IMG/VR virus record: IMGVR_UViG_3300010160_002247
Coordinates: 1-38,581 of that record
Reading direction: 5' to 3' (one strand)
DNA from: a virus
Length of the DNA stretch: 38,581 bases
A model generated the notes under the pieces. The model was not told where the DNA came from and searched no databases. It saw only the letters and a list, made by a program, of their open reading frames with translations. The stretch's first letter is position 1. Each line of letters opens with the position of its first letter. Positions 3,256-38,195 of this stretch are shown one piece after another. The translations under genes were made by a program, and so were the position numbers.

Positions 3256-4170
3256 ATGGCAAATAATAAAACTGGATTGAAAAACATTCCAAAAATTCCG
3301 GTACCAAAATTTAACAAACCGGTATCAACCTCAGCTGCCCCAGCAGCACCAGAAGGCGCACAACCCCAACCAGGTCAATTGCAAATTAATATTGATGAAT
3401 TGCGTAAAGAAAAAATCTTTGTTGCAACACCATGTTATGGTGGTATGTTAACAGAGGCATATTTTAGATCAATGGTTCGTACATTGACATTCTTTAATCA
3501 ACACCAAATCCCAATCGCATTTGGTACGATTGCAAATGAGTCTTTAGTTACTCGTGCTCGCAATGTGTTAGTTGCTTATTTTCTACAAAGTAATTATTCT
3601 CGTTTACTCTTTATTGATGCAGACATTGAATTCCAAGTTGAAGATGTATTGAAGTTGATTGCGCACAATAAAGAAGTTTGCGTTGGTGCATATCCTAAGA
3701 AGGGTGTTAACTGGCAACGTATTAAAGAACACGTTATACGCAAAACTGGCGAAGAAATCTCTGATAGAGATATTGCAGCAGCAGGTTCAGATTATGCGAT
3801 TAACTTTAAATTTGTTAATCGTGATATGAAACAAATTGCTATTGAAAATGGCGTAATTAAATTGCATGATGGCGCTACAGGCTTTATGATGATTAAACGT
3901 GAAGCAATTGATAAGATGATTGCTGCATATCCAGAGTTGAAGTATAACAATGATTTAAATACCCCTCCAGATTTGCAAGACTTCTTCTATGCATTCTTTG
4001 ACACAATGATTGATCCTGTAGATCGTCGTTATTTGTCAGAAGATTATACATTCAGCAGACGCTGGCAAAGCATCGGCGGCGACATTTGGCTCGACCCAAC
4101 AATCTCATTGAACCACTTTGGAGCATTTAACTTCCAAGGTAATCCATCACAAATTATTCAAATTGGATAA
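3256..4170 (+). CDS. GT-A-like glycosyltransferase in the structural module
   Basis: Probable nucleotide-sugar-dependent glycosyltransferase of 304 residues. Residues 1-50 are a Pro/Ala/Gln-rich, probably disordered tail. The GT-A-like domain starts at IFVATPCYGG (about 54-63), carries a DAD metal-binding motif at 121-123 (LLFIDADIEF) and has a C-terminal half with SEDYTFSRRW and LNHFGAF. The acidic SED and late His resemble catalytic and metal-binding positions of GT-A enzymes, but that assignment is inference. It sits 17 bases after a tail gene behind a late promoter, with a GGAG ribosome site, so it would be made late. Acceptor unknown: virion protein or host glycan are the simplest options. 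Confidence 0.7.
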   Translation: MANNKTGLKNIPKIPVPKFNKPVSTSAAPAAPEGAQPQPGQLQINIDELRKEKIFVATPCYGGMLTEAYFRSMVRTLTFFNQHQIPIAFGTIANESLVTRARNVLVAYFLQSNYSRLLFIDADIEFQVEDVLKLIAHNKEVCVGAYPKKGVNWQRIKEHVIRKTGEEISDRDIAAAGSDYAINFKFVNRDMKQIAIENGVIKLHDGATGFMMIKREAIDKMIAAYPELKYNNDLNTPPDLQDFFYAFFDTMIDPVDRRYLSEDYTFSRRWQSIGGDIWLDPTISLNHFGAFNFQGNPSQIIQIG

Positions 4171-6098: not shown

Positions 6099-6511
6099 AC
6101 CAATCATATAAACTATTAAAACTTAATACAGGTGACGATATAGTTTGTAAAACTGAAGAAAATTTATCATTAAAAGATAAGGAAAGTATTTTCGTACAGG
6201 ACCCCATGGTGCTTGATCAAATTAGAGTACCTTATGGATCTGGTATAATGGAATCTTATACTTTATCTCCTTGGATGGCAATGACCGAAGATACTTTTTA
6301 TGAAATACCTGTACGTTATATTATTGTAGCTGCGGATATTAAAGAAAATCTTAAAGATAATTATATAAAGTATGTACAAAATCGCAAAGAAGCAGAACTA
6401 AATGCAGAATGCGAAGATAAAGAAGAATCTGATAACTCTGAAATTGAAAAAGACCCTAACTATGAAAACAGCCAAAGCACCATTAAACGTCGCGGAAAAC
6501 TTGTCCACTAA
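6095..6511 (+). CDS. Small acidic protein between uvsW and gp55, function unknown
   Basis: The 138-residue protein starts on an ATGA overlap with the uvsW stop. Residues 1-95 look like a compact beta-rich domain (YKLLKLNTGDDIVCKTEE, then IFVQDPMVLDQI and LSPWMAMTEDTFYEIPVRYII). This LSm/Sm-like pattern recurs in small proteins of T4-like phages next to gp55. Residues about 100-138 are charged and probably disordered (EDKEESDNSEIEKD) with a basic end (KRRGK). No catalytic motif is evident. The gene overlaps the chosen gp55 start by 50 bases. A role in RNA or transcription is only suggested by the fold impression and position. Confidence 0.75.
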   Translation: MNQSYKLLKLNTGDDIVCKTEENLSLKDKESIFVQDPMVLDQIRVPYGSGIMESYTLSPWMAMTEDTFYEIPVRYIIVAADIKENLKDNYIKYVQNRKEAELNAECEDKEESDNSEIEKDPNYENSQSTIKRRGKLVH

Positions 6512-7061
6512 ACCTAAGATGCAGGTGTCATCCCATTATGTTGACAACAAAAAATTCTTACAAGCATTAATAGACTATCGACAAAGTGTAGTTGACGCAG
6601 CCGCAAAAGGTGAAGAACCTCCGATTGTTTCAAAATACATAGGAGAATGCTTTATTAAGATTTCAACCCATCTTTCATACAAATCTAATTTTATTAATTA
6701 TACCTTTAAAGATGATATGATATCCGATGGTATTGAAAATTGTTTAACGGCGGTTGTTAAATTTGATCCTGCAAAATCTTCAAACCCGTTTGCTTATTAT
6801 ACACAAGTTATCTATTTTGCATTCATTAGACGTATCCAAAAAGAAAAGAAACAACAAGCAACCAAATACAAGCTAATTGAGAATATGGATATTGATGCTT
6901 TAATTTCTCAAGAACAAGATGGTGAATTTGGTTCGCAATTCTTAGATTATCTAAAACGACAAATGGATACTATTGATATTGAAAAACGGGTAATGAATAT
7001 TCCGAAAAAGGCTAAAAAAGTTCGAGATGATATCGAAAATCCGCTTGACCTTGATGACTAA
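6462..7061 (+). CDS. 55: Late-transcription sigma factor gp55
   Basis: Divergent sigma70-family factor that directs host RNA polymerase to TATAAATA late promoters. The 199 residues match T4 gp55 in the YVDNKKFLQALIDYRQ block near the N-terminus, the DDMISDGIENCLTAVVKFDP region (sigma region 2-like) and YYTQVIYFAFIRRIQKEKKQ (-10 recognition). I chose ATG 6462; the frame stays open to an ATG at 6402, and ATG 6519 (MQVSSHYV) is also possible because homology begins there. T4 gp55 ends with a hydrophobic clamp-binding peptide (SLDFLYE), whereas this protein ends NPLDLDD, which lacks the aromatic residue. The coding sequence also contains the -35 box of the next promoter. Confidence 0.93.
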   Translation: MKTAKAPLNVAENLSTKPKMQVSSHYVDNKKFLQALIDYRQSVVDAAAKGEEPPIVSKYIGECFIKISTHLSYKSNFINYTFKDDMISDGIENCLTAVVKFDPAKSSNPFAYYTQVIYFAFIRRIQKEKKQQATKYKLIENMDIDALISQEQDGEFGSQFLDYLKRQMDTIDIEKRVMNIPKKAKKVRDDIENPLDLDD

Positions 7062-7073: not shown

Positions 7074-7099
7074 ATGTAGTATAAATTCTCGGAGATATG

Positions 7100-7969
7100 A
7101 TGGCAAAATTGAAAATATCAGAACTATTTTATAGTATTCAGGGCGAAGGTAGATACATGGGAGTTCCTTCTGTGTTCTTAAGAACATTTGGTTGCAACTT
7201 TACTTGCGACGGATTTGGAATGACAAAGGGTGAAAAGAGTAATGAAAGAAATGTTATTGCAATTAAAGCTGATAGTTTTACTACCTATAAAGATCTTCCT
7301 CTTGTTCATACAGGTTGCGACTCTTATGCTTCTTGGGATCCTCGGTTTAAGCATCTTAGCCCTGTACTCTCTACTGATAGCATTACCGATACAATTATGG
7401 ATATACTACCGCACAAGAGGTGGGAAGACGAACATCTTGTAATCACAGGCGGTGAACCTTTATTAGGTTGGCAAAAACAATATCCTGAATTATTAGATAA
7501 TGAAAAGATGTTAGGGTTAAAAGAACTAACATTTGAGACAAATGGCACCCAACCGCTAACGCCTGAGTTTAAACAATATCTCCTAAATTGGACATTGAGT
7601 AATAAAAATAGATCAAATAAAAGAGGTCGTGATACTTTAACATTTTCAGTCTCTCCTAAATTATCTGTATCCGGTGAAAAATGGGAAGATGCAATTTGTC
7701 CTGAAATTGTTGCAGGATATGAATGGTGCGGATATACTTATCTTAAATTTGTAATTGCTTCACCCCAAGATGCGGAAGAAGCAGAGGAAGCAGTAAATGC
7801 ATATCGTAAAGCTGGTTTTACGGGTCCTGTTTATCTTATGCCTCTTGGTGGCACTGAGCAGTTGTACTCTATTAATAATAGGAATGTTGCAGAACTCGCA
7901 ATGCGAAAAGGTTGGAGATACTCAGATAGACTCCAAATTCCATTGTTTAAAAACGCATGGGGAACATAA
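7100..7969 (+). CDS. queE: QueE-like 7-carboxy-7-deazaguanine synthase (radical SAM)
   Basis: Converts 6-carboxytetrahydropterin to 7-carboxy-7-deazaguanine (CDG), the committed deazaguanine step. Hallmarks are SIQGEGRYMG near the N-terminus, the radical-SAM cysteines in FGCNFTC and the later TGCDSYASWDP, and the glycine-rich ITGGEPLLGW. Counting from the upstream Met the cysteines are C33, C37 and C74: the second and third are separated by 36 residues, a long insertion compared with the usual CxxxCxxC or the CX14CX2C of some QueE proteins. ATG 7097 is also in frame, but GGAG at 7091-7094 spaces better from ATG 7100. With folE, queD and a DpdA-like gene nearby, a role in DNA modification is more likely than tRNA queuosine. 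Confidence 0.9.
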   Translation: MAKLKISELFYSIQGEGRYMGVPSVFLRTFGCNFTCDGFGMTKGEKSNERNVIAIKADSFTTYKDLPLVHTGCDSYASWDPRFKHLSPVLSTDSITDTIMDILPHKRWEDEHLVITGGEPLLGWQKQYPELLDNEKMLGLKELTFETNGTQPLTPEFKQYLLNWTLSNKNRSNKRGRDTLTFSVSPKLSVSGEKWEDAICPEIVAGYEWCGYTYLKFVIASPQDAEEAEEAVNAYRKAGFTGPVYLMPLGGTEQLYSINNRNVAELAMRKGWRYSDRLQIPLFKNAWGT

Positions 7970-8226: not shown

Positions 8227-8913
8227 ATGTCATATAACAAAACAAAATGCGACCCCGAGTTGGGTCTTAAAGTTCACGAACATCTAGTTAAAGTAGGAGT
8301 TGAAACTCCTATTAAAGAGACTGGGCAAGTGATTGATCGTAAGGGCAAGATCGATGTAATCGAATCTTTATTTACAGATATCATGAAAACACTTGGGCTT
8401 GATCTTACAGATGATAGTCTAATTGACACGCCTAAGCGTGTTGCTAAGATGTATGTGAATGAAATCTTTTGGGGACTCGATTATGAGGCTTTCCCTAAAT
8501 GCACAACTGTTAATAACAAAATGCATTATAATGAAATGGTTGTAGAACGTAATGTTAATGTACAATCTAATTGTGAGCATCACTTCGTTGTAATTGATGG
8601 ATTGGCAACTGTAGCATATGTTCCTAAGCAACGAGTGTTGGGTCTAAGTAAAATTAATCGTATTGTTGAATATTTCAGCAAACGACCACAGATTCAAGAA
8701 CGCCTAACAGAACAAATTTTCCATACACTACAGTTTATTCTTGATACTGAAGATGTTGCTGTATTGATTGATGCACAACACTATTGTGTTAAATCTAGAG
8801 GTGTTGAAGATACAGGAAGTTCTACAGTCACCGTTCGCTTAGGTGGCGGATTTAAAAATCACCCAGAAGTAAGAAACGAGTTTTATCAGATTGCAAGACA
8901 AGGATGTAAATGA
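8227..8913 (+). CDS. folE: GTP cyclohydrolase I
   Basis: Makes dihydroneopterin triphosphate from GTP, the shared first step of folate and 7-deazaguanine synthesis. The 228-residue protein has a variable N-terminus (1-45), then IDTPKRVAKMYVNEIFWGL, the zinc-site CEHHF (C116, H119), LGLSKINRIVEYFSKRPQIQERLTEQI and HYCVKSRGV, whose C187 is the third zinc ligand. The catalytic set looks complete. AAGGA lies upstream of the ATG. The stop overlaps the next start (ATGA). Next to queE, queD and the DpdA-like gene it supplies precursor for a modified base. Confidence 0.96.
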   Translation: MSYNKTKCDPELGLKVHEHLVKVGVETPIKETGQVIDRKGKIDVIESLFTDIMKTLGLDLTDDSLIDTPKRVAKMYVNEIFWGLDYEAFPKCTTVNNKMHYNEMVVERNVNVQSNCEHHFVVIDGLATVAYVPKQRVLGLSKINRIVEYFSKRPQIQERLTEQIFHTLQFILDTEDVAVLIDAQHYCVKSRGVEDTGSSTVTVRLGGGFKNHPEVRNEFYQIARQGCK

Positions 8914-9419: not shown

Positions 9420-9602
9420 ATGACAAATGTCCAGCAACGAATGGAAGAATTGATTAGACCAATCGATCAACAAATTTATATGTGCGACGATAGGCGAGAT
9501 TTATTAATGTTTAATTGCGCAATGTTACAACGAGTTAAAGAAGTATTTGATTTGTTAGTGGGTGAAGAAGGTCGCAAGAATATGTTTAAAGATTTAGTAT
9601 GA
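9420..9602 (+). CDS. Small helical protein, unknown
   Basis: A 60-residue, probably all-helical protein (MEELIRPIDQQIYMCDDRRD, then LMFNCAMLQRVKEVFDLLVG). It starts directly after the exonuclease stop and overlaps the next gene by 4 bases. Small helical proteins of this kind are frequent in T4-like phages. No function can be assigned, and coding status rests on tight packing and ordinary codon use. Confidence 0.65.
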   Translation: MTNVQQRMEELIRPIDQQIYMCDDRRDLLMFNCAMLQRVKEVFDLLVGEEGRKNMFKDLV

Positions 9603-10960
9603 AAACTTATAAAAAGAGAATTGCATTTTGTATTAGTGATCAGCATCTAGTGCCTCACGGTGGTATTGGGCAATTTGCCAAAGGGTTTGTTGAGATGGCA
9701 AATAAAATTAACTGGAAGGTTGATATTATTACAGACAAACCCACAACAAATGACTTTGCCAAATTAGTTGAATCATTAGGTGCAAATTTAATTGCACCCA
9801 AAAATGCTTTGTCATATAAAAATCATACCGGCACCTTTGCATTTACTGATTCAATTAACTTTGAAAAGATGATTAACTTTCGTGATGCTGTTATGAATGC
9901 GTTTCATACTAACATTTATGACATGGTTGTCTGCAACTCTTTAGAAGCAATGCCTGCAGTATTAAGTTTTGATCTTAATAATTACATCCCCGTAGTTCTT
10001 TACACGCATGAAGAAAGTATGGTATTCCGTGATACGAGAAAATTTAAAGGTGTGTTTTTAGAGAGTTGTAATGAATTCTTTAATAATTTAATGACAGTTG
10101 AAAGTTGTCATATTGGCACACAATCTGCACGAAATGTTTCTGAAATTAAGAACAATGGCGGAGTAAATGTAGAGCATTTGAGTATGCCTATGTCTGAAAG
10201 AGAATTACTCACAAGCAATTATGCAGAACGAAAAGGTGTCTTGTATATTGGTCGTTGGGAAGATCGCAAAAATCCAGAAGCATTTTTAAAAGTAATTAAA
10301 GAGACTGGATTGCCTGCAAAGATTATGACGAATGTAAACGGCAAAAAGAAATTTGAAGCTCGTCTTGCAGAACTCGGCATAACAGATTATGAGATTAAAG
10401 CTAGCATTGTTGGCAAAGAAAAAGTTGACTTTATTAAATCTGCAAAGGTACACTTTAATCCGTCTCTAAGAGAAAATTACCCGTTCACATTTTTTGAATG
10501 TCTTGGACATATGCCTTGTATTGTTATTGACAAATCTGAATGGGTAACTAATTTTGATAACAAATATTATATTCGTTTGCCCCTAAATGAGGTTGCTGAA
10601 GTATTAAAAAATGAATATAATGCTGATCGAAAACAACGCAACCATGATGCGTTACAGTATGTAAAACATTTGGATTTTCAAACATCTGATAGATGGAAAA
10701 AGTTCCTTTCAGGATACAAACAAACATCTTTAGCAAGATCAGACTCCGCAAAAATTAATGATTATTCTGAAATCAAATATGCAGACTTTATTAAAATCCT
10801 AAATAGGACACAATTAGCTATAGATGATGTCAAAAGTATATTGACAAATAAGTCTAAATATAATATAATCTATACAGACAACGACACATATTTATCTAAA
10901 GATCCAAATTTTATACCAAAAGAAGAAGCAACTTCTTCATTAGAAAGCCTGTTTGCATGA
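9599..10960 (+). CDS. GT-B glycosyltransferase with clamp-binding-like C-terminus
   Basis: Retaining GT-B glycosyltransferase of the GT4 type, 453 residues. The N-terminal Rossmann half has GGIGQFAKGF at 21-30. The C-terminal half has VLYIGRWEDRKNPEAFLKV (about 217-235) and the donor-site region FNPSLRENYPFTFFECLG (about 286-303), where a Glu pair is expected in GT4 enzymes. After residue 370 comes an extension ending in EEATSSLESLFA. The last residues, SLESLFA, match the end of the adjacent DpdA-like protein (SLEDLFA) and resemble the clamp-binding C-terminus of T4 gp43 (SLDFLFG). T4 alpha-glucosyltransferase is reported to interact with the gp45 clamp, so this enzyme may glycosylate DNA at the fork (inference). 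A surface-glycan role is the alternative. Confidence 0.87.
   Translation: MKTYKKRIAFCISDQHLVPHGGIGQFAKGFVEMANKINWKVDIITDKPTTNDFAKLVESLGANLIAPKNALSYKNHTGTFAFTDSINFEKMINFRDAVMNAFHTNIYDMVVCNSLEAMPAVLSFDLNNYIPVVLYTHEESMVFRDTRKFKGVFLESCNEFFNNLMTVESCHIGTQSARNVSEIKNNGGVNVEHLSMPMSERELLTSNYAERKGVLYIGRWEDRKNPEAFLKVIKETGLPAKIMTNVNGKKKFEARLAELGITDYEIKASIVGKEKVDFIKSAKVHFNPSLRENYPFTFFECLGHMPCIVIDKSEWVTNFDNKYYIRLPLNEVAEVLKNEYNADRKQRNHDALQYVKHLDFQTSDRWKKFLSGYKQTSLARSDSAKINDYSEIKYADFIKILNRTQLAIDDVKSILTNKSKYNIIYTDNDTYLSKDPNFIPKEEATSSLESLFA
10841..10869 (+). promoter_or_regulatory. Perfect sigma70-type promoter before the dpdA-like gene
   Basis: TTGACA (10841-10846), a 17-base spacer and TATAAT (10864-10869), inside the 3' end of the glycosyltransferase gene and 87 bases before the dpdA-like start. 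A second overlapping TATAAT begins at 10859. The location suits separate transcription of the transglycosylase. Confidence 0.7.
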
Positions 10961-12243
10961 GAACATATGAATACGTAATTTCTGGCCCAGCATATTTACG
11001 CTTGGGCGCAGAACAATGTAATGACCCTATAGTATTAGAAATGATGCTCGACATGATTGCTCGAGTTTGCCACAATCAAAATAACCATACATTCTCACTA
11101 TTGTATAATGGGTTTACTGAAAAGAACTTTGGCTCTAAATTACAAAAGTTTCGCCCTTCAATTAATAACATTCATGCTGACTCTGGTGGTTTGCAGATTA
11201 TTACTCGTGGGTTGAAAAATACTTCAGATGTAAGAGAAAAAGTTTATTTGAATCAGGCCACATATGCCGATATTGGCATGTCTTTTGACGAGATTCCTGT
11301 TAAGACAACTTCTACAAGCGGTGTATCATCTAAGATTGATACTAAGCGTAGATATGCAGATATGGATAATTTTGACGATTATGCAAGACAAACGGGTCGA
11401 AATGTAAAAGCGCAAATTGAAACATTCGATAAGATGGGTAGCAAATGTAGACCATTTGTTATTATGCAAGGATCGTCTCAAGAATCATATTCACGCTGGG
11501 CAAAATTAGCACTTGAAGAAATTACTCCGGCATTGCATCATCGTATTGGTGGTCTTGCTATGGGATCAGCTGCTCTAGGTATGGGTCAGCTTGAAGACGT
11601 TAAACGAGCATTCTATGTTACACAGATGCCATACACAAGACCATTTCATTTACACGTATTGGGTGTAGGCGCACTACGTCGTATTCTTCCTTATATTTGT
11701 TTCAGTCAATCTGGTTTGTATGAAGGCATTGATATCTCATATGACTCGACAACACATTCTATGTCATTGGATAATGGATTGTTTTATTTTTCATTCGCTA
11801 AAAAAGCTGCAGGCTCACCATATGGCGGAACCTCTGTAAAAATGGGTAGAGAATATTCTAACATTTATAGAACAGTTACTAAAGAAATTAATACAGTGTG
11901 TGGAACAAATTATACCCCTGAAGAATATCATATCTTAATGAATAGAGGTGTAGGTGTTCATTTAGACGCAGGTGGACAATTTGTAGATATTATGCGAGCA
12001 CGTCTTGCTTTTATTTTAACAAACGTACACAATTTTACTCACGATGTAAATGCTTTAACAGAATCTAAAGAATTGTTTTTAAAGTTCTGCAGAGAAAAAG
12101 ATTGCGAGAATGAATATGCTACATTATTTGATGTTAAGACGCTTGCTGATTTTGAGCATTGGGAAAAAGATGTAGGCAAACATATGGATTCCGAACCAGT
12201 TAACACACAACCACCAGTTTCACTTGAGGATTTATTTGCATGA
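10957..12243 (+). CDS. dpdA: DpdA-like 7-deazaguanine DNA transglycosylase (TGT paralogue)
   Basis: A 428-residue member of the tRNA-guanine transglycosylase superfamily. In phages with queE/folE/queD, such DpdA proteins swap guanine in DNA for a 7-deazaguanine. Visible TGT features are HADSGGLQ (73-80, with D75 matching the TGT catalytic Asp), IGGLAMGS (197-204), HVLGVG (233-238) and GIDISYDSTTH (257-267), where D263 is the likely nucleophile. The CxCxxC..H zinc site of bacterial TGT is absent, which argues against ordinary Tgt. The C-terminus is a short flexible linker (NTQPP) followed by SLEDLFA, a probable sliding-clamp peptide. It overlaps the upstream glycosyltransferase by 4 bases. The inserted base cannot be read from sequence; no queC or gat-queC is in this window. 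Confidence 0.85.
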   Translation: MRTYEYVISGPAYLRLGAEQCNDPIVLEMMLDMIARVCHNQNNHTFSLLYNGFTEKNFGSKLQKFRPSINNIHADSGGLQIITRGLKNTSDVREKVYLNQATYADIGMSFDEIPVKTTSTSGVSSKIDTKRRYADMDNFDDYARQTGRNVKAQIETFDKMGSKCRPFVIMQGSSQESYSRWAKLALEEITPALHHRIGGLAMGSAALGMGQLEDVKRAFYVTQMPYTRPFHLHVLGVGALRRILPYICFSQSGLYEGIDISYDSTTHSMSLDNGLFYFSFAKKAAGSPYGGTSVKMGREYSNIYRTVTKEINTVCGTNYTPEEYHILMNRGVGVHLDAGGQFVDIMRARLAFILTNVHNFTHDVNALTESKELFLKFCREKDCENEYATLFDVKTLADFEHWEKDVGKHMDSEPVNTQPPVSLEDLFA

Positions 12244-12692
12244 CCGATATTATTTCAGACGATCCAGTATTTTTTACAGACACAATTATACACAGTAAAT
12301 TAATTAAAAAGAAAAGTTCTATTTGGGTTACCTTTCGTAAAGAAGGTATTCATAAATATCCCCAAGCTGCAACTGATCCTAAATTAGCAACAGGCGATTG
12401 GCTAGATGTTTCATTCTTAGGAACACCGCATAGACACATTTTTCATTTCCGAGTAGAGATGGAAGTATTTCATGATGATCGAGATGTAGAATTTATTCAG
12501 GCAAAACGCATTATGGAAAAGTGGTATTCAGATGGCACTTTACATTTAGATTATAAGTCATGCGAAATGATGGCATGCGATCTTTATGATAAATGCGCGC
12601 AAAAATGGCCTGATAGAGATTATACTATTGAAGTATCAGAAGATGGTGAAAACGGTTGTAGAATTAGTTTTGAGAGGATAGCAGGTGAGTAA
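12240..12692 (+). CDS. Unknown 150-residue protein after dpdA
   Basis: Starts on an ATGA overlap with dpdA. It has a SSIWVTFRKEGIHKYPQA segment, then FLGTPHRHIFHFRVEMEVFHDDRDVEFI near 60-88, with closely spaced His residues (HRHIFHF) and an HDDRD acidic patch. The C-terminal half is helical with three Cys (CEMMACDLYDKC). The pattern looks conserved and globular. I recall similar phage proteins but no function, and the His/Asp cluster hints at metal binding without matching a known site. The tight link to dpdA makes a role in modification or in reading modified DNA possible but unproven. Confidence 0.75.
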   Translation: MTDIISDDPVFFTDTIIHSKLIKKKSSIWVTFRKEGIHKYPQAATDPKLATGDWLDVSFLGTPHRHIFHFRVEMEVFHDDRDVEFIQAKRIMEKWYSDGTLHLDYKSCEMMACDLYDKCAQKWPDRDYTIEVSEDGENGCRISFERIAGE

Positions 12693-13854
12693 ATTATATT
12701 ATATGGGTTTAGAACCCTATGAAGGTCGTTATACTTTACAATTACAACAATGGAGCGAAGCTGCATTTAAACGCAGAGGCATTGATTATGAAGTAATTCA
12801 TGGCAATATTTTAGATGACTCTAAGGCAATTGTTACAGGTCAAGTACTTGATGCGCATGGGCGTAGTTATTATTCTCTGACACAAATGGCTAATCTTATT
12901 AAGAAGATGAAAGCTGGTGAAATTACTTGGCAAGATACAATCTTTTTTGAAGATATGTTTACTCCCGGAATTGAGGCATTGCCCTATATTATGGATCAAG
13001 TAAGTTTTGAGTATCAACCTCGAATCTTTGTACGTTGTCTTGCACAGACAATTGACCCGGATGATTTTGTTCATGTATGGGATATGCAAAAGTGGATGGG
13101 GTTGTATGAGAAGATGACAGATCAATTTGTTACGGGTGTACTTGCATCTAACGAAGAGATGGTTGCTCATATGAAAATTGCAGGATGGGAAGCACCAACC
13201 TTTAATATCTCTGGGCTTGCATTTGATAAAGATGAAGTTCGTGGTCGTGTAGCAACTCGTATTCCATTTAATGAGCGTAAACTTCGTGTAGTATTTGCTG
13301 CAAGATTCGATCAAGAAAAACAACCTGATTTCTTTATGGATTTAATTGAAAGATATCATACAATTAATCCCAATGTGGAATTTGCTGTTTTATCGGGCGG
13401 CCCTTTACGTAGTAATAACGAAAAGTATTTGACTCGCGCACGCGCATTGGAAAAGACTCATAATTTTAAAATATATGAGAATCTTAAGAAGAATGAATAC
13501 TATGAATTGCTAGGTGATTCCCGAGTATTGTTTAATTGTGCATTGCAGGATTGGGTAAGTAATACTGCATCAGAAGCAGATGCACTTGGTACAAATTGTT
13601 TGTATCCTGCATATAGATCATTCCCAGAAACATTTGCCAATGATCGTGAATGTCTCTATATCCCATGGTCACAAGATGATGCAGTATTTAAATTAAATAC
13701 ATTGTTGTTTCAAGAGCGAGCAAATTTAGGTAAATTGTCTGATTGGACAGCTGGTACTATTGATCGTTGCTTAGATATTATGTTTGAAGATAATTCTAAA
13801 TGGTATCGTAGCGGTAAGGATTACAGAGATTATGTTCCAGCAGCCAAGTACTAA
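12685..13854 (+). CDS. Second GT-B-type glycosyltransferase of the modification module
   Basis: The 389-residue product begins at GTG 12685, supported by GAGAGG 7 bases upstream; the next ATG is 12703. N-terminal half: YYMGLEPYEGRYTLQLQQW, then EDMFTPGIEALPYIMDQ. C-terminal half: a classic GT-B segment RKLRVVFAARFDQEKQPDFF, then NVEFAVLSGGPLRSN and NCALQDWVSNTASEADALGTN, equivalent to the donor-binding E-x7-E region. There is no signal peptide or membrane segment, so it is cytosolic. It lies between the DpdA-associated gene and a GalE-like epimerase that could supply its UDP-sugar. DNA, tRNA or a soluble acceptor are all possible. Unlike the other GT here, it lacks the SLExLFA tail (ends VPAAKY). 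Confidence 0.8.
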   Translation: MSKLYYMGLEPYEGRYTLQLQQWSEAAFKRRGIDYEVIHGNILDDSKAIVTGQVLDAHGRSYYSLTQMANLIKKMKAGEITWQDTIFFEDMFTPGIEALPYIMDQVSFEYQPRIFVRCLAQTIDPDDFVHVWDMQKWMGLYEKMTDQFVTGVLASNEEMVAHMKIAGWEAPTFNISGLAFDKDEVRGRVATRIPFNERKLRVVFAARFDQEKQPDFFMDLIERYHTINPNVEFAVLSGGPLRSNNEKYLTRARALEKTHNFKIYENLKKNEYYELLGDSRVLFNCALQDWVSNTASEADALGTNCLYPAYRSFPETFANDRECLYIPWSQDDAVFKLNTLLFQERANLGKLSDWTAGTIDRCLDIMFEDNSKWYRSGKDYRDYVPAAKY

Positions 13855-14892: not shown

Positions 14893-15375
14893 ATGGCAAA
14901 TAAAAAATTCTTCTCAACAAAAACATATAGACAAATAGGTCCCGTAGCTTATAGACAATGGCGTGCGGATTCTCATTGTAATTTAATTCATGGTTATGCT
15001 ATGAGTTTTCACTTTGAATTTGAAGCAGATACATTGGATGCCCGTAATTGGGTAACTGATTTCGGTGGGTTACGACCACTTAAAGACAAGCTAGAAGAAT
15101 GGTTTGACCACACTCTACTAGTTGCACAAGATGATCCAATGCGCGAACATCTATTGGAATTGGGTAGATTAAAACTAGCTAAGATTACAGAAGTAGAACG
15201 TACAGGATGTGAGGGGTTATCCGACTTCTTATATGAATATATTAACACAATCTTTTTACCTAATTGCGGTAGCGAAGAAGCTAAGCGAGTTTGGTGCTGC
15301 CGAGTAGAAGTTCGCGAGACTGATTCTAATATGGCAGGCCGTTCTGGTCATAGAGAAGACAACGAATTTAATTAA
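14893..15375 (+). CDS. queD: QueD-like 6-carboxytetrahydropterin synthase
   Basis: Turns dihydroneopterin triphosphate (the FolE product) into 6-carboxytetrahydropterin, the QueE substrate. The 160-residue protein fits the 6-pyruvoyl-tetrahydropterin synthase fold: ADSHCNLIHGYAMSFHFEF at 25-43, then WVTDFGGLRPLKDKLEEWFDH and VEVRETD near the end with the expected Glu. In canonical QueD the motif is C-x3-HGH, giving zinc ligands. Here the second His of HGH is Tyr35 and the upstream His (H28) is directly next to C29. I recall this HCxxxHGYA variant from other phages and marine bacteria. Preceded by AGAGG. It completes a folE-queD-queE route to CDG. Confidence 0.87.
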   Translation: MANKKFFSTKTYRQIGPVAYRQWRADSHCNLIHGYAMSFHFEFEADTLDARNWVTDFGGLRPLKDKLEEWFDHTLLVAQDDPMREHLLELGRLKLAKITEVERTGCEGLSDFLYEYINTIFLPNCGSEEAKRVWCCRVEVRETDSNMAGRSGHREDNEFN

Positions 15376-33271: not shown

Positions 33272-33979
33272 ATGACAAAAATCGTAGCAACTTCGGTGTA
33301 CGGGAATAGCCCTCGGTATATTACTGGGGCCATTCGACAATTTGAATTAACAAAGAAATTTTATCCTGGTTGGGAATATAGAATATATACCGACGATAAA
33401 ACAAAGTTTAATTCTATTGCAGACGAGGCAAACATTATTGAAATGGATAAGGGTCACGGAGTATTCTGGAGATTCTTACCTATGTTTGAAGATGAAAATA
33501 ATATTGTTATTGTTCGTGATTCCGATGGAAGAATTACATTAAGAGAACAAATGGCAGTGGATGAGTGGGTTAAATCTGATTTTAAGTTCCACACATTTCG
33601 AGATCACGAGGCGCATTATCAATTTCCTGTAATAGCATGTGCATTTGGCTACAAAGGAAAATTATCAGATAAACTATTAGACGTAATGAATAATTATATG
33701 CTCAATACTAATTATTATACTAACGATCAAGTTTATTTAAGAGATGATATATTCCCGGTTGTAAAGGATAGCGCATTAATTCATTCTATGAATGATGGAT
33801 GGTTTGGGGAAACTCGCAATCAGTTAATCAATCCATTCGATTTTTGCGGCAATGGATATGATGAATATGATATGCCGTTATACCCCTCAACACTTGCGGA
33901 ATGCACGGGATTTGATCCCAAGACAGTATCCGACAAATATAAATTTAACTACGGTTATTTAACAGGAAACGTAACATGA
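33272..33979 (+). CDS. GT-A glycosyltransferase with DSD motif
   Basis: A 235-residue enzyme starting at ATG 33272, one base after the previous stop; a TTG at 33248 is in frame but unlikely. Pattern: IVATSVYGNSPRYITGAIRQF at 4-24 would be the nucleotide-binding strand, GVFWRFLPMFED, then IVIVRDSDGRITLRE with D83-S-D85 as metal-binding DxD, and NDQVYLRDDIFP near the catalytic end. This layout is common for small mannosyltransferase-like GTs in polysaccharide loci. It overlaps the FkbM gene by 4 bases. Confidence 0.75.
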   Translation: MTKIVATSVYGNSPRYITGAIRQFELTKKFYPGWEYRIYTDDKTKFNSIADEANIIEMDKGHGVFWRFLPMFEDENNIVIVRDSDGRITLREQMAVDEWVKSDFKFHTFRDHEAHYQFPVIACAFGYKGKLSDKLLDVMNNYMLNTNYYTNDQVYLRDDIFPVVKDSALIHSMNDGWFGETRNQLINPFDFCGNGYDEYDMPLYPSTLAECTGFDPKTVSDKYKFNYGYLTGNVT

Positions 33980-34629
33980 CACAATACTATGGTTCATCCG
34001 AAGAAGATAAATTCATTAAAGAATATTTCCCTGAGGGATATGTGGGAAGGTGTATTGAGGTTGGAGGATCTGATGGCATTACACATTCTAACACATATTA
34101 CTTTGAAAAATCATTGGGGTGGGATTGTTTGGTAATTGAACCTCAACCTGGTCCTAGATTTTTTGATTCTTGTAAAGAGAAAAGAAAGAATGCTTTACAA
34201 TGTGCTGTTGCATCTGAGAATAAAGATGATGTAGAATTTACAGTAGTATTTTGTAATTATCAAAATAGCGGGCATCAAGCATGGGGCGGAATGAGTGGTT
34301 TGCAAGTAGATCAAAAATTAGTTGAAGCACATAAAGAACTTGGTCTAGATCCTCAAGAAGTTACAATTCCTGTTCCTACTCGCCGGCTAGATTGGATTAT
34401 TGAGGAAGTATATGATGAAAAATATCCTACAATTGATTTTATTACAATTGATACTGAAGGAACTGAATTAGATGTTCTTAAATCTTTCGATACTACAAAG
34501 TATAACACAAAATTAATTGTTATAGAAAACAATTGGAAAGATCCTGCAATCGGAGAATATCTTGCACAGTTCGGTTGGACACGAGATAGAGTTATAGAAC
34601 AGAATGAGTTTTTTGTGAGGAACGTATGA
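33976..34629 (+). CDS. FkbM-family methyltransferase
   Basis: A 217-residue SAM-dependent methyltransferase. Motif I is CIEVGGSDGITHSNT (26-40), the acidic ribose-binding strand is CLVIEPQPG, and the FkbM signature is IDFITIDTEGTELDVLKSF with D159. Such enzymes O-methylate sugars in phage and bacterial glycan clusters. It overlaps both neighbours by 4 bases. The substrate is unknown. Confidence 0.92.
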   Translation: MTQYYGSSEEDKFIKEYFPEGYVGRCIEVGGSDGITHSNTYYFEKSLGWDCLVIEPQPGPRFFDSCKEKRKNALQCAVASENKDDVEFTVVFCNYQNSGHQAWGGMSGLQVDQKLVEAHKELGLDPQEVTIPVPTRRLDWIIEEVYDEKYPTIDFITIDTEGTELDVLKSFDTTKYNTKLIVIENNWKDPAIGEYLAQFGWTRDRVIEQNEFFVRNV

Positions 34630-37538: not shown

Positions 37539-38195
37539 ATGCAAATTAGTAATGAAACAATCCAAATTTTGAAGAACTTTGCTACGGTAAACAGTAATAT
37601 TCTTATTCGAAAAGGCAAGACTTTGTCTACAATTAGCACAGCAAAGAACATCTTTGCAAAGGCAACAGTAGCAGAAGACTTCCCAGTTGAGGTTGCGGTG
37701 TATGATTTAAACTCTTTGTTGGCATTGTTGACATTGATGGAGAATCAAGATGTTGAGTTTGGCGAGAAGTCATTGACTATCTCTAAGAACAATGGTAAGT
37801 TTGAGTACTTCTATTCTAACGCAAACGTAATTGTTGCGGCGCCTGATAAATCTATTGAGATTGATAATCACTTTCAATTCCAATTGTCAGCAGAGGATGT
37901 TAATATGATTATGAAGGCAGCTAATATTACAGCGGCGCCAACAATCTCTGTTACTGCTAAAGACGGTACAGTTGTATTGACTATCGGTGATAAGAAAAAC
38001 GATACTGCAAATACTTATAAGAAAACAATTGGTGCAAGCGATGAGTCTTTCGAGTGCCATATGTCTGTAGACAATTTTAAAATTGTACCAGATGCTTATA
38101 CAGTAACAGTATCTAAAAAGAAATTGTTCCACTTCCAACATTCTACAAAAGTAATTGAATATTTTATAGCAATGGAACCCGATTCGGTGGTATAA
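37539..38195 (+). CDS. 45: Sliding clamp gp45
   Basis: Trimeric DNA polymerase processivity clamp and, in T4, the activator of late transcription. The 218-residue protein starts at ATG 37539 after TTAGGAGAT; the frame is open upstream to 37518. It is close to T4 gp45 (228) in length. Characteristic parts are the N-terminal MQISNETIQILKNFATVNSN, FAKATVAEDFPVEVAVYDLN, LLALLTLMEN and the two-domain repeat of beta-alpha-beta motifs ending KVIEYFIAMEPDS. In this phage it is the likely docking partner for proteins with SLExLFA tails at 10960 and 12243. The stop overlaps the next start (TAATG). Confidence 0.95.
   Translation: MQISNETIQILKNFATVNSNILIRKGKTLSTISTAKNIFAKATVAEDFPVEVAVYDLNSLLALLTLMENQDVEFGEKSLTISKNNGKFEYFYSNANVIVAAPDKSIEIDNHFQFQLSAEDVNMIMKAANITAAPTISVTAKDGTVVLTIGDKKNDTANTYKKTIGASDESFECHMSVDNFKIVPDAYTVTVSKKKLFHFQHSTKVIEYFIAMEPDSVV

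Follow-up and report, generated by a model that had tools for sequence, protein, structure and literature searches.

A probable T4-type clamp-interacting peptide at the C-termini of viral DNA-modifying enzymes

Recruitment of DNA modification by a sliding clamp is familiar from eukaryotes, where DNMT1 is bound to PCNA via a PIP (PCNA-interacting protein) box. Here we describe a putative phage counterpart, which differs in the clamp, the position of the motif and the enzymes. It comes from IMG/VR virus record IMGVR_UViG_3300010160_002247, whose 38,581 bases we call the window, and in which a glycosyltransferase (GT) and an adjacent DpdA2-like DNA-guanine transglycosylase end in SLESLFA and SLEDLFA. 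Judged from sequence, these tails are very probably T4-type clamp-interacting peptides (CIPs) borrowed by base-modifying enzymes, which would tether both proteins to the phage sliding clamp, gp45.

The T4 replicative polymerase, gp43, ends in SLDFLFG, and its PIP-box-like CIP, 892-SLDFLF-897, is described as taking up a single helical turn when bound in the pocket of the clamp, with loss of six residues preventing clamp association (PMC12746103). The same motif on gp55, which ends in SLDFLYEAND, and on gp33 also binds gp45, and the three tails are reported to be interchangeable (PMC2988020). The original prediction gave the gp43 and gp55 forms correctly. The window tails share with the T4 and RB69 CIPs their place at the extreme C-terminus, the S/T-L-acidic-x-L/F-F core, the linker before it, which is variable here, and a gp45 clamp in the same virus. 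The difference is that the peptide is found here on base-modification enzymes. A second precedent invoked in the original prediction, T4 alpha-glucosyltransferase (AGT), holds in part: it too modifies DNA and binds gp45 (Sommer 2004, cited in PMC13216743 and PMC6024577), but it has no such C-terminal tail, and the window GT has no match to its family, PF11440.

The DpdA2 group is known from work on Vibrio phage nt-1 (Hutinet 2019, PMC6884629). Compared via the related phage KVP40 rather than the nt-1 protein itself, that system has a homologous transglycosylase beside FolE, QueD and QueE genes; the KVP40 DpdA2 differs in having no clamp tail, and the window and its nearest large relatives differ in having no QueC match. 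In the open-access papers covered by our searches, clamp tails were not reported for DpdA, TET, Mom, Dam or TAGT, a scope that does not prove absence.

The two tailed enzymes and their homologues

The GT (453 residues) is encoded at 9599–10960 and the DpdA-like protein (428 residues) at 10957–12243, both on the + strand, their open reading frames (ORFs) overlapping by 4 bases. The DNA bears out both frames and both predicted C-termini, ...ATSSLESLFA-TGA for the GT and ...PPVSLEDLFA-TGA for the DpdA-like protein. The GT tail (10937–10957) follows a linker of residues 434–446 (10898–10936) that varies in sequence and length, and the DpdA tail (12220–12240) a mostly variable linker of residues 412–421 (12190–12219); in both alignments the linker columns are among the least conserved of the C-terminus. 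AlphaFold2 predicts a short terminal helix for each tail, at GT residues 448–452 with low confidence (predicted local distance difference test, pLDDT, only about 47–56, with a mean of 56 for residues 441–450) and at DpdA residues 423–427 with pLDDT 74, the DpdA linker block standing at 81.

The remainder of the two proteins was thought to be unrelated, and their predicted folds agree with this. The GT had no match in Pfam or PHROG profile searches, but its model (pLDDT 88.8) retrieved 408 PDB chains with Foldseek at E ≤ 0.001. The best include the GT-B enzymes HepE, sucrose-phosphate synthase, MshA, BshA and WaaG, and tetrahydrobiopterin glucosyltransferase is also among the matches. By its model it is thus a GT-B fold glycosyltransferase, and it probably acts on DNA, adding a sugar. 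The DpdA-like protein matches phrog_10773, shares 30% identity with its KVP40 homologue and found no match in a PDB sequence search; its model (pLDDT 89.1) has tRNA-guanine transglycosylases (TGTs) as top Foldseek matches (E 5e-6 to 2e-5), with modest template modelling scores of 0.43–0.50 on the query. TGT fold and homology to phage DpdA2 together identify it as a DpdA2-type protein, a predicted base-exchange enzyme.

The tail is kept in most homologues of both enzymes, many of which, among the IMG/VR loci, are near-identical. All 22 close IMG/VR DpdA loci end in SLE[DE]LFA. Other IMG/VR contigs supply another 21 full-length DpdAs, of which 20 end in SLE[DEN]LF and one (L070) in SLELEF. Among 53 IMG/VR loci with GT homologues, 5 of them cut, an LE[SD]LF end is found in 40 of the 48 full-length proteins; two others (L070, L071) end in SFDDIF or CEDIFG, two (L072, L073) have no tail, and four (L054, L055, L056, L066) have ends of the SLFE/LFEG form. 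The tails of these four, NLFEGL, SLFEWV or ALFEGL, are possibly a differently tuned clamp peptide. In named phages, tailed DpdAs occur in BUCT-ZZ01 (38% identity), ACP17 (34%), X1 (28%) and Ps15 (27%), and a tailed GT in BUCT-ZZ01 (39%), a complete genome whose host is Synechococcus elongatus PCC 7942. The claim that the tail is of the clamp type therefore passed its conservation test, with the tail matching and largely tracking that of gp43 in related phages, as described below, although it does not extend to every homologue.

Within the tail, conservation falls on the inner residues. Across 13 aligned DpdAs, L423 and E424 never vary and S422 and F427 each reach 92% conservation, after a poorly conserved linker. 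Short hydrophobic C-termini ending in Ala can serve as protease signals, and the tails could be read as C-terminal degrons or protease tags on that account. Against this, the inner SLxx[LF]F core persists where the final residue differs from tail to tail (A, G, E, D, S, K, V, ND or none). The replicative polymerase bears the tail as well, and we consider a degron very improbable and reject it.

Carriers of the tail and agreement with the polymerase

Which proteins carry the tail was assessed in two ways. The C-terminal pattern [STND][LM][EDGS]x[LF]F followed by 0–3 residues occurs in 23 of 2,678 ORFs from 12 genomes or contigs, where the internal positions of these proteins would predict 0.36; the pattern was devised after the tails were known, and several of the 12 genomes or contigs were picked for their tailed enzymes. 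A looser pattern also caught unrelated C-termini, which the strict one dropped. The 23 carriers comprise 8 polymerases, 7 DpdAs, 4 GTs, 3 TETs and 1 Dam-type methylase (C48C1 33480–34364, PF02086), and within the window only the GT and the DpdA-like protein match, 2 of 45 ORFs.

Viral contigs of IMG/VR were scanned three times for [ST]LE[DE][LF]F[AG] followed by a stop, with at least 120 matches each time and thus at least 360. Among the 360 matches listed, 297 are B-family polymerases and 63 are other proteins, 46 of which fall in DNA-modification families: 20 DpdA, 12 TET/JBP, 4 C5 methylases, 3 N4/N6 methylases, 2 TAGT, 2 AGT (L311 and L675), 2 Mom (one strong PF25680 match and one fragment of the same cluster) and 1 Dam. 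The remaining 17 listed carriers are one window-type GT, eight GT-like proteins (seven in one cluster whose representative matches PF13524 below cut-off, and one PF00534) and eight without a family (L275, L342, L361, L195, L606, L644 and the pair L600/L673). Families were set by BLAST to known members and by clustering, with Pfam or PHROGs on representatives, and the carriers are not independent, several DpdAs being closely related to that of the window.

Only seven residues are being compared, and with a pattern devised after the fact, so that the likeness might be due to chance or to recent copying of a piece of DNA. In its TGA, S-first form, a codon pattern for the same residues in scrambled order found 1 match in all, against at least 120 for the real order, and the pattern search found 23 matches where 0.36 were expected. 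The carriers belong to different families, and within the window the tail codons are TCA TTA GAA AGC CTG TTT GCA in the GT and TCA CTT GAG GAT TTA TTT GCA in the DpdA gene; because common residues are partly spelled by different codons, recent copying of the tail is unlikely. We reject both chance and copying, whose probability we regard as negligible.

Of the TET relatives, 62 of 78 full-length proteins have the strict tail and the other 16 mostly have near-variants, such as SLVDFF, SLQDFF, TLDAFL and ALDSLW. No tail is found on the TETs of three phages, S-CBWM1, HTVC112P and P12024L, in whose records there is no PF00136 polymerase.

Several other carriers were noted in passing. At L339:1913-3957, a TAGT with the tail NSLEEFFG lies immediately upstream of a C5 methylase ending in NSLEAFL, giving two consecutive modification enzymes with clamp-like tails. 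Seven related GT-like proteins (L576, L597, L607, L630, L641, L665 and L682), of about 415 residues when complete, end in ATLEDFF[AG]. The tailed proteins of L600 and L673, with 367 and 328 residues, are related to each other; that of L600 belongs to phrog_13881, and both are candidates for new DNA-modifying enzymes. Small tailed ORFs at L195:4601-5047 and L606 (about 3371–4000) overlap the polymerase gene at its end and extend past it, and that of L195 shows a weak likeness to SinI restriction endonuclease (0.0011, below cut-off).

The tails of modifying enzymes resemble those of the polymerases encoded beside them. In a 222-kb relative, gp43 ends in ATLEGLFG, DpdA in SSLEELFG and the GT in DTLESLFA; gp43 and the enzymes of BUCT-ZZ01 have STLDDFFS, ASLDSFFD and GSLEDFFND; and the tails of gp43 and enzyme are PSLDDLFE and TTLDELFE in ACP17, SSLESLFG and QSLEELFG in X1, and SSLEDLFGW and NSLDDLFG in Ps15. 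The DLP6 polymerase ends in ATLDSFFA. In six relatives searched with phmmer, the tail was not seen on homologues of gp55, gp33, gp44, gp62, gp32, ligase, gp46, gp47, UvsX or gp41. The S-B43 polymerase frame was found, at 760 residues, and ends early; CmoX of that phage, a published DNA cytosine carboxymethyltransferase, was tried as a named example and set aside for having no tail.

The resemblance extends to whether the penultimate core position is L or F. Our first sample held 26 distinct records with a DNA polymerase B, which had come in as pattern matches or through kinship with the two window proteins or with tailed proteins, and were thus partly picked for their tails. A DNA-modifying protein with a comparable tail agrees with gp43 at this position in 20 of the 26: all 23 strict pairs, from 18 records, agree in their LF or FF state, and G010 and G029 bring the records to 20. 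In one of these 20 records (G028) the protein is weakly restriction-endonuclease-like, and in another (G029) it is a 17-residue DpdA-like fragment. The other six records misfit or are not comparable (KVP40, pf16, Cr30, an Acinetobacter phage with a TAGT, G003 and G004). For a second sample we took 20 long contigs from among those of 80 TET relatives; 11 of these have a polymerase, whose C-terminus could be read in 10. Agreement is seen for strict tails in four (G037, G038, G039, G049) and for near-variants in three (G046, G048, G050), with disagreement between strict tail and polymerase in G043 and G044 and between near-variant and polymerase in G047. Collapsed by lineage in a hand-entered table that includes G028, G048 and G050 and leaves out G046, the counts are 5 LL, 14 FF and 1 mixed (Fisher p=0.0004, or p=0.001 with G047 counted against).

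These carriers take the matter beyond DpdA plus GT. The original prediction of a clamp-tethered pair stands insofar as both enzymes have the tail, but the phenomenon is wider than the pair. Viruses with T4-type clamps have likely placed the polymerase's clamp tail repeatedly on at least nine DNA-modifying enzyme families of several folds (DpdA2, window GT, TET/JBP, C5 methylase, N4/N6 methylase, Dam, TAGT, AGT and Mom), making a clamp-tethered assembly line behind the fork for base exchange, oxidation, methylation, acylation and glycosylation, with the tail tuned to the clamp pocket.

The sliding clamp and the proposed mechanism

The proposed docking partner, a gp45-type clamp that the original prediction had placed at 37539, is encoded at 37539–38195 on the + strand (phrog_223, 6.2e-65; PF09116) and matches the RB69 and T4 gp45 structures (1b77/1b8h, 1czd) at E about 1e-21. 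The peptide pocket of RB69 gp45 is described as including residues 39, 107, 109, Arg32, Trp199, 204 and 217 (PMC3012046). Positions 39, 107 and 109 are hydrophobic in the window clamp (F, I and I); position 204 meets an alignment gap, and at 217 the larger alignment gives F and the first, smaller one E. We compared 29 clamps of known gp43 form, collapsed to 20 lineages, column by column over 228 columns for association of an aromatic residue with the LF or FF state. The top columns were 217 (p=0.0002) and 39 (p=0.022), values uncorrected for the 228 columns or for kinship, and both belong to the published pocket. An aromatic residue at 39 pairs with LF and a non-aromatic one with FF, the exceptions being Cr30, G022, G047 and G048.

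This association bears on whether the tail might bind some other shared partner, such as a replisome or repair protein or a DpdA–GT assembly, instead of the clamp pocket. The clamp is not the sole protein near the fork, and clamp binding is here a prediction from sequence. Yet gp43 ends in this motif and has gp45 as its partner in T4 and RB69, the same motif on T4 gp55 and gp33 binds gp45 too, and its LF/FF state associates with two gp45 pocket residues; we therefore hold a different partner to be improbable.

A stronger alternative accepts clamp binding but gives it another purpose, for example plain retention on DNA, or supposes that the GT acts on a substrate that is not DNA, for instance a pterin or a glycan. 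The GT-B fold alone is silent on substrate, tetrahydrobiopterin glucosyltransferase is among the structural matches, and binding of T4 AGT to the clamp is reported in a 2026 study to have little effect on its modification share and not to be mainly responsible for it (PMC13216743). On the other side, 46 of the 63 non-polymerase carriers among the matches listed belong to DNA-modification families, and the genes for the GT and DpdA overlap both here, by 4 bases, and in BUCT-ZZ01, by 8. We consider this alternative unlikely, but give it appreciable weight.

A number of observations weigh against a polymerase-type clamp tail on modifying enzymes, beginning with the T4 AGT study and the lack of such a tail on T4 AGT itself. 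The window holds no PF00136 DNA polymerase or gp43, so that all polymerase comparisons are with relatives. The DpdA2 proteins of KVP40 and pf16 have no tail although their gp43 bears the motif, and DpdA2 is therefore not always in need of one; a distant GT homologue in X1 (25% identity) and the TAGT of the Acinetobacter phage also have none. The tails of G003 and G004 are of other forms, and the Cr30 TET ends in GATLF. In the second sample, the LF/FF states of strict tails disagree in G043 and G044, which are of one lineage, and the G047 TET ends in ALDSLWD beside an FF polymerase. In the window clamp, I and S stand in place of the pocket residues Arg32 and Trp199, and size-class mutual information ranks column 39 only 24th of 228, with 217 second. 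The C5 methylases of three named phages, S-TIM5, XG4 and S-B43 (CmoX), have no tail; the device is therefore common, not universal. A CIP is nonetheless the best account of the tails, because likeness to the polymerase tail, conservation, selectivity and covariation are taken together.

With the tails read as CIPs, each would occupy the hydrophobic pocket on the gp45 of its own phage, as SLDFLF of T4 gp43 does, and the linkers would tether DpdA2 and the GT to clamps on replicating DNA, raising the local enzyme concentration on the new duplex. DpdA2 would exchange guanine, probably for a 7-deazaguanine made by FolE, QueD and QueE, as it follows the fork, and the GT, also following the fork, would then add a sugar to the DNA after base exchange. 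Physical binding, fork tethering, base exchange before sugar and GT action on DNA are all steps that we infer. Recurrence of the tail on many kinds of DNA-modifying enzyme in related phages suggests that these viruses disguise their DNA where it is copied.

If true, a portable clamp tail would be a general and testable rule, with modification coupled to replication via gp45 and restriction escaped in good time. It would also serve as a sequence tag by which new DNA-modification enzymes could be sought in phages that have a clamp, among non-polymerase proteins with [ST]L[ED]x[LF]F at the end; the phrog_13881-type proteins of L600 and L673 are examples, as is the GT-like family of L597. The tail also suggests a simple laboratory route for directing modifying enzymes to replicating DNA.

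Neighbouring genes in the window

The late sigma factor gp55 has a homologue at 6402–7061 (phrog_234) that ends in ENPLDLDD. It is without the LF tail of T4 gp55, as are the gp55 homologues of G001, G002, G004, BUCT-ZZ01 and ACP17, and the clamp may be linked to late transcription in another way.

Upstream of the tailed pair on the + strand lie genes for a QueE-like radical SAM enzyme of 7-deazaguanine base synthesis (7097–7969; phrog_2076, 1.1e-51) and a FolE-like GTP cyclohydrolase (8227–8913; phrog_2197, 3.9e-74), and downstream on the same strand a gene for a QueD-like enzyme (14893–15375; phrog_2389, 3.8e-41; PF01242). QueC (PF06508) was not found in the window, its 222-kb and 202-kb relatives (G001 and G002), BUCT-ZZ01 or ACP17, but has a match in KVP40 and Ps15. 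The window, L076, L077 and relatives have FolE, QueD and QueE without a match to QueC, which makes 7-carboxy-7-deazaguanine a possible inserted base, or else preQ0 made with host help; a carboxy-deazaguanine would be a possible chemical handle for further modification.

Directly after DpdA, the stretch 12240–13854 encodes a phrog_17812 protein and a second, group 1 GT (12685–13854, + strand; PF00534, 1.9e-6) that is tail-less and ends in DYVPAAKY. Proteins of similar start sequence adjoin DpdA in BUCT-ZZ01 and ACP17, which suggests a conserved hypermodification cassette.

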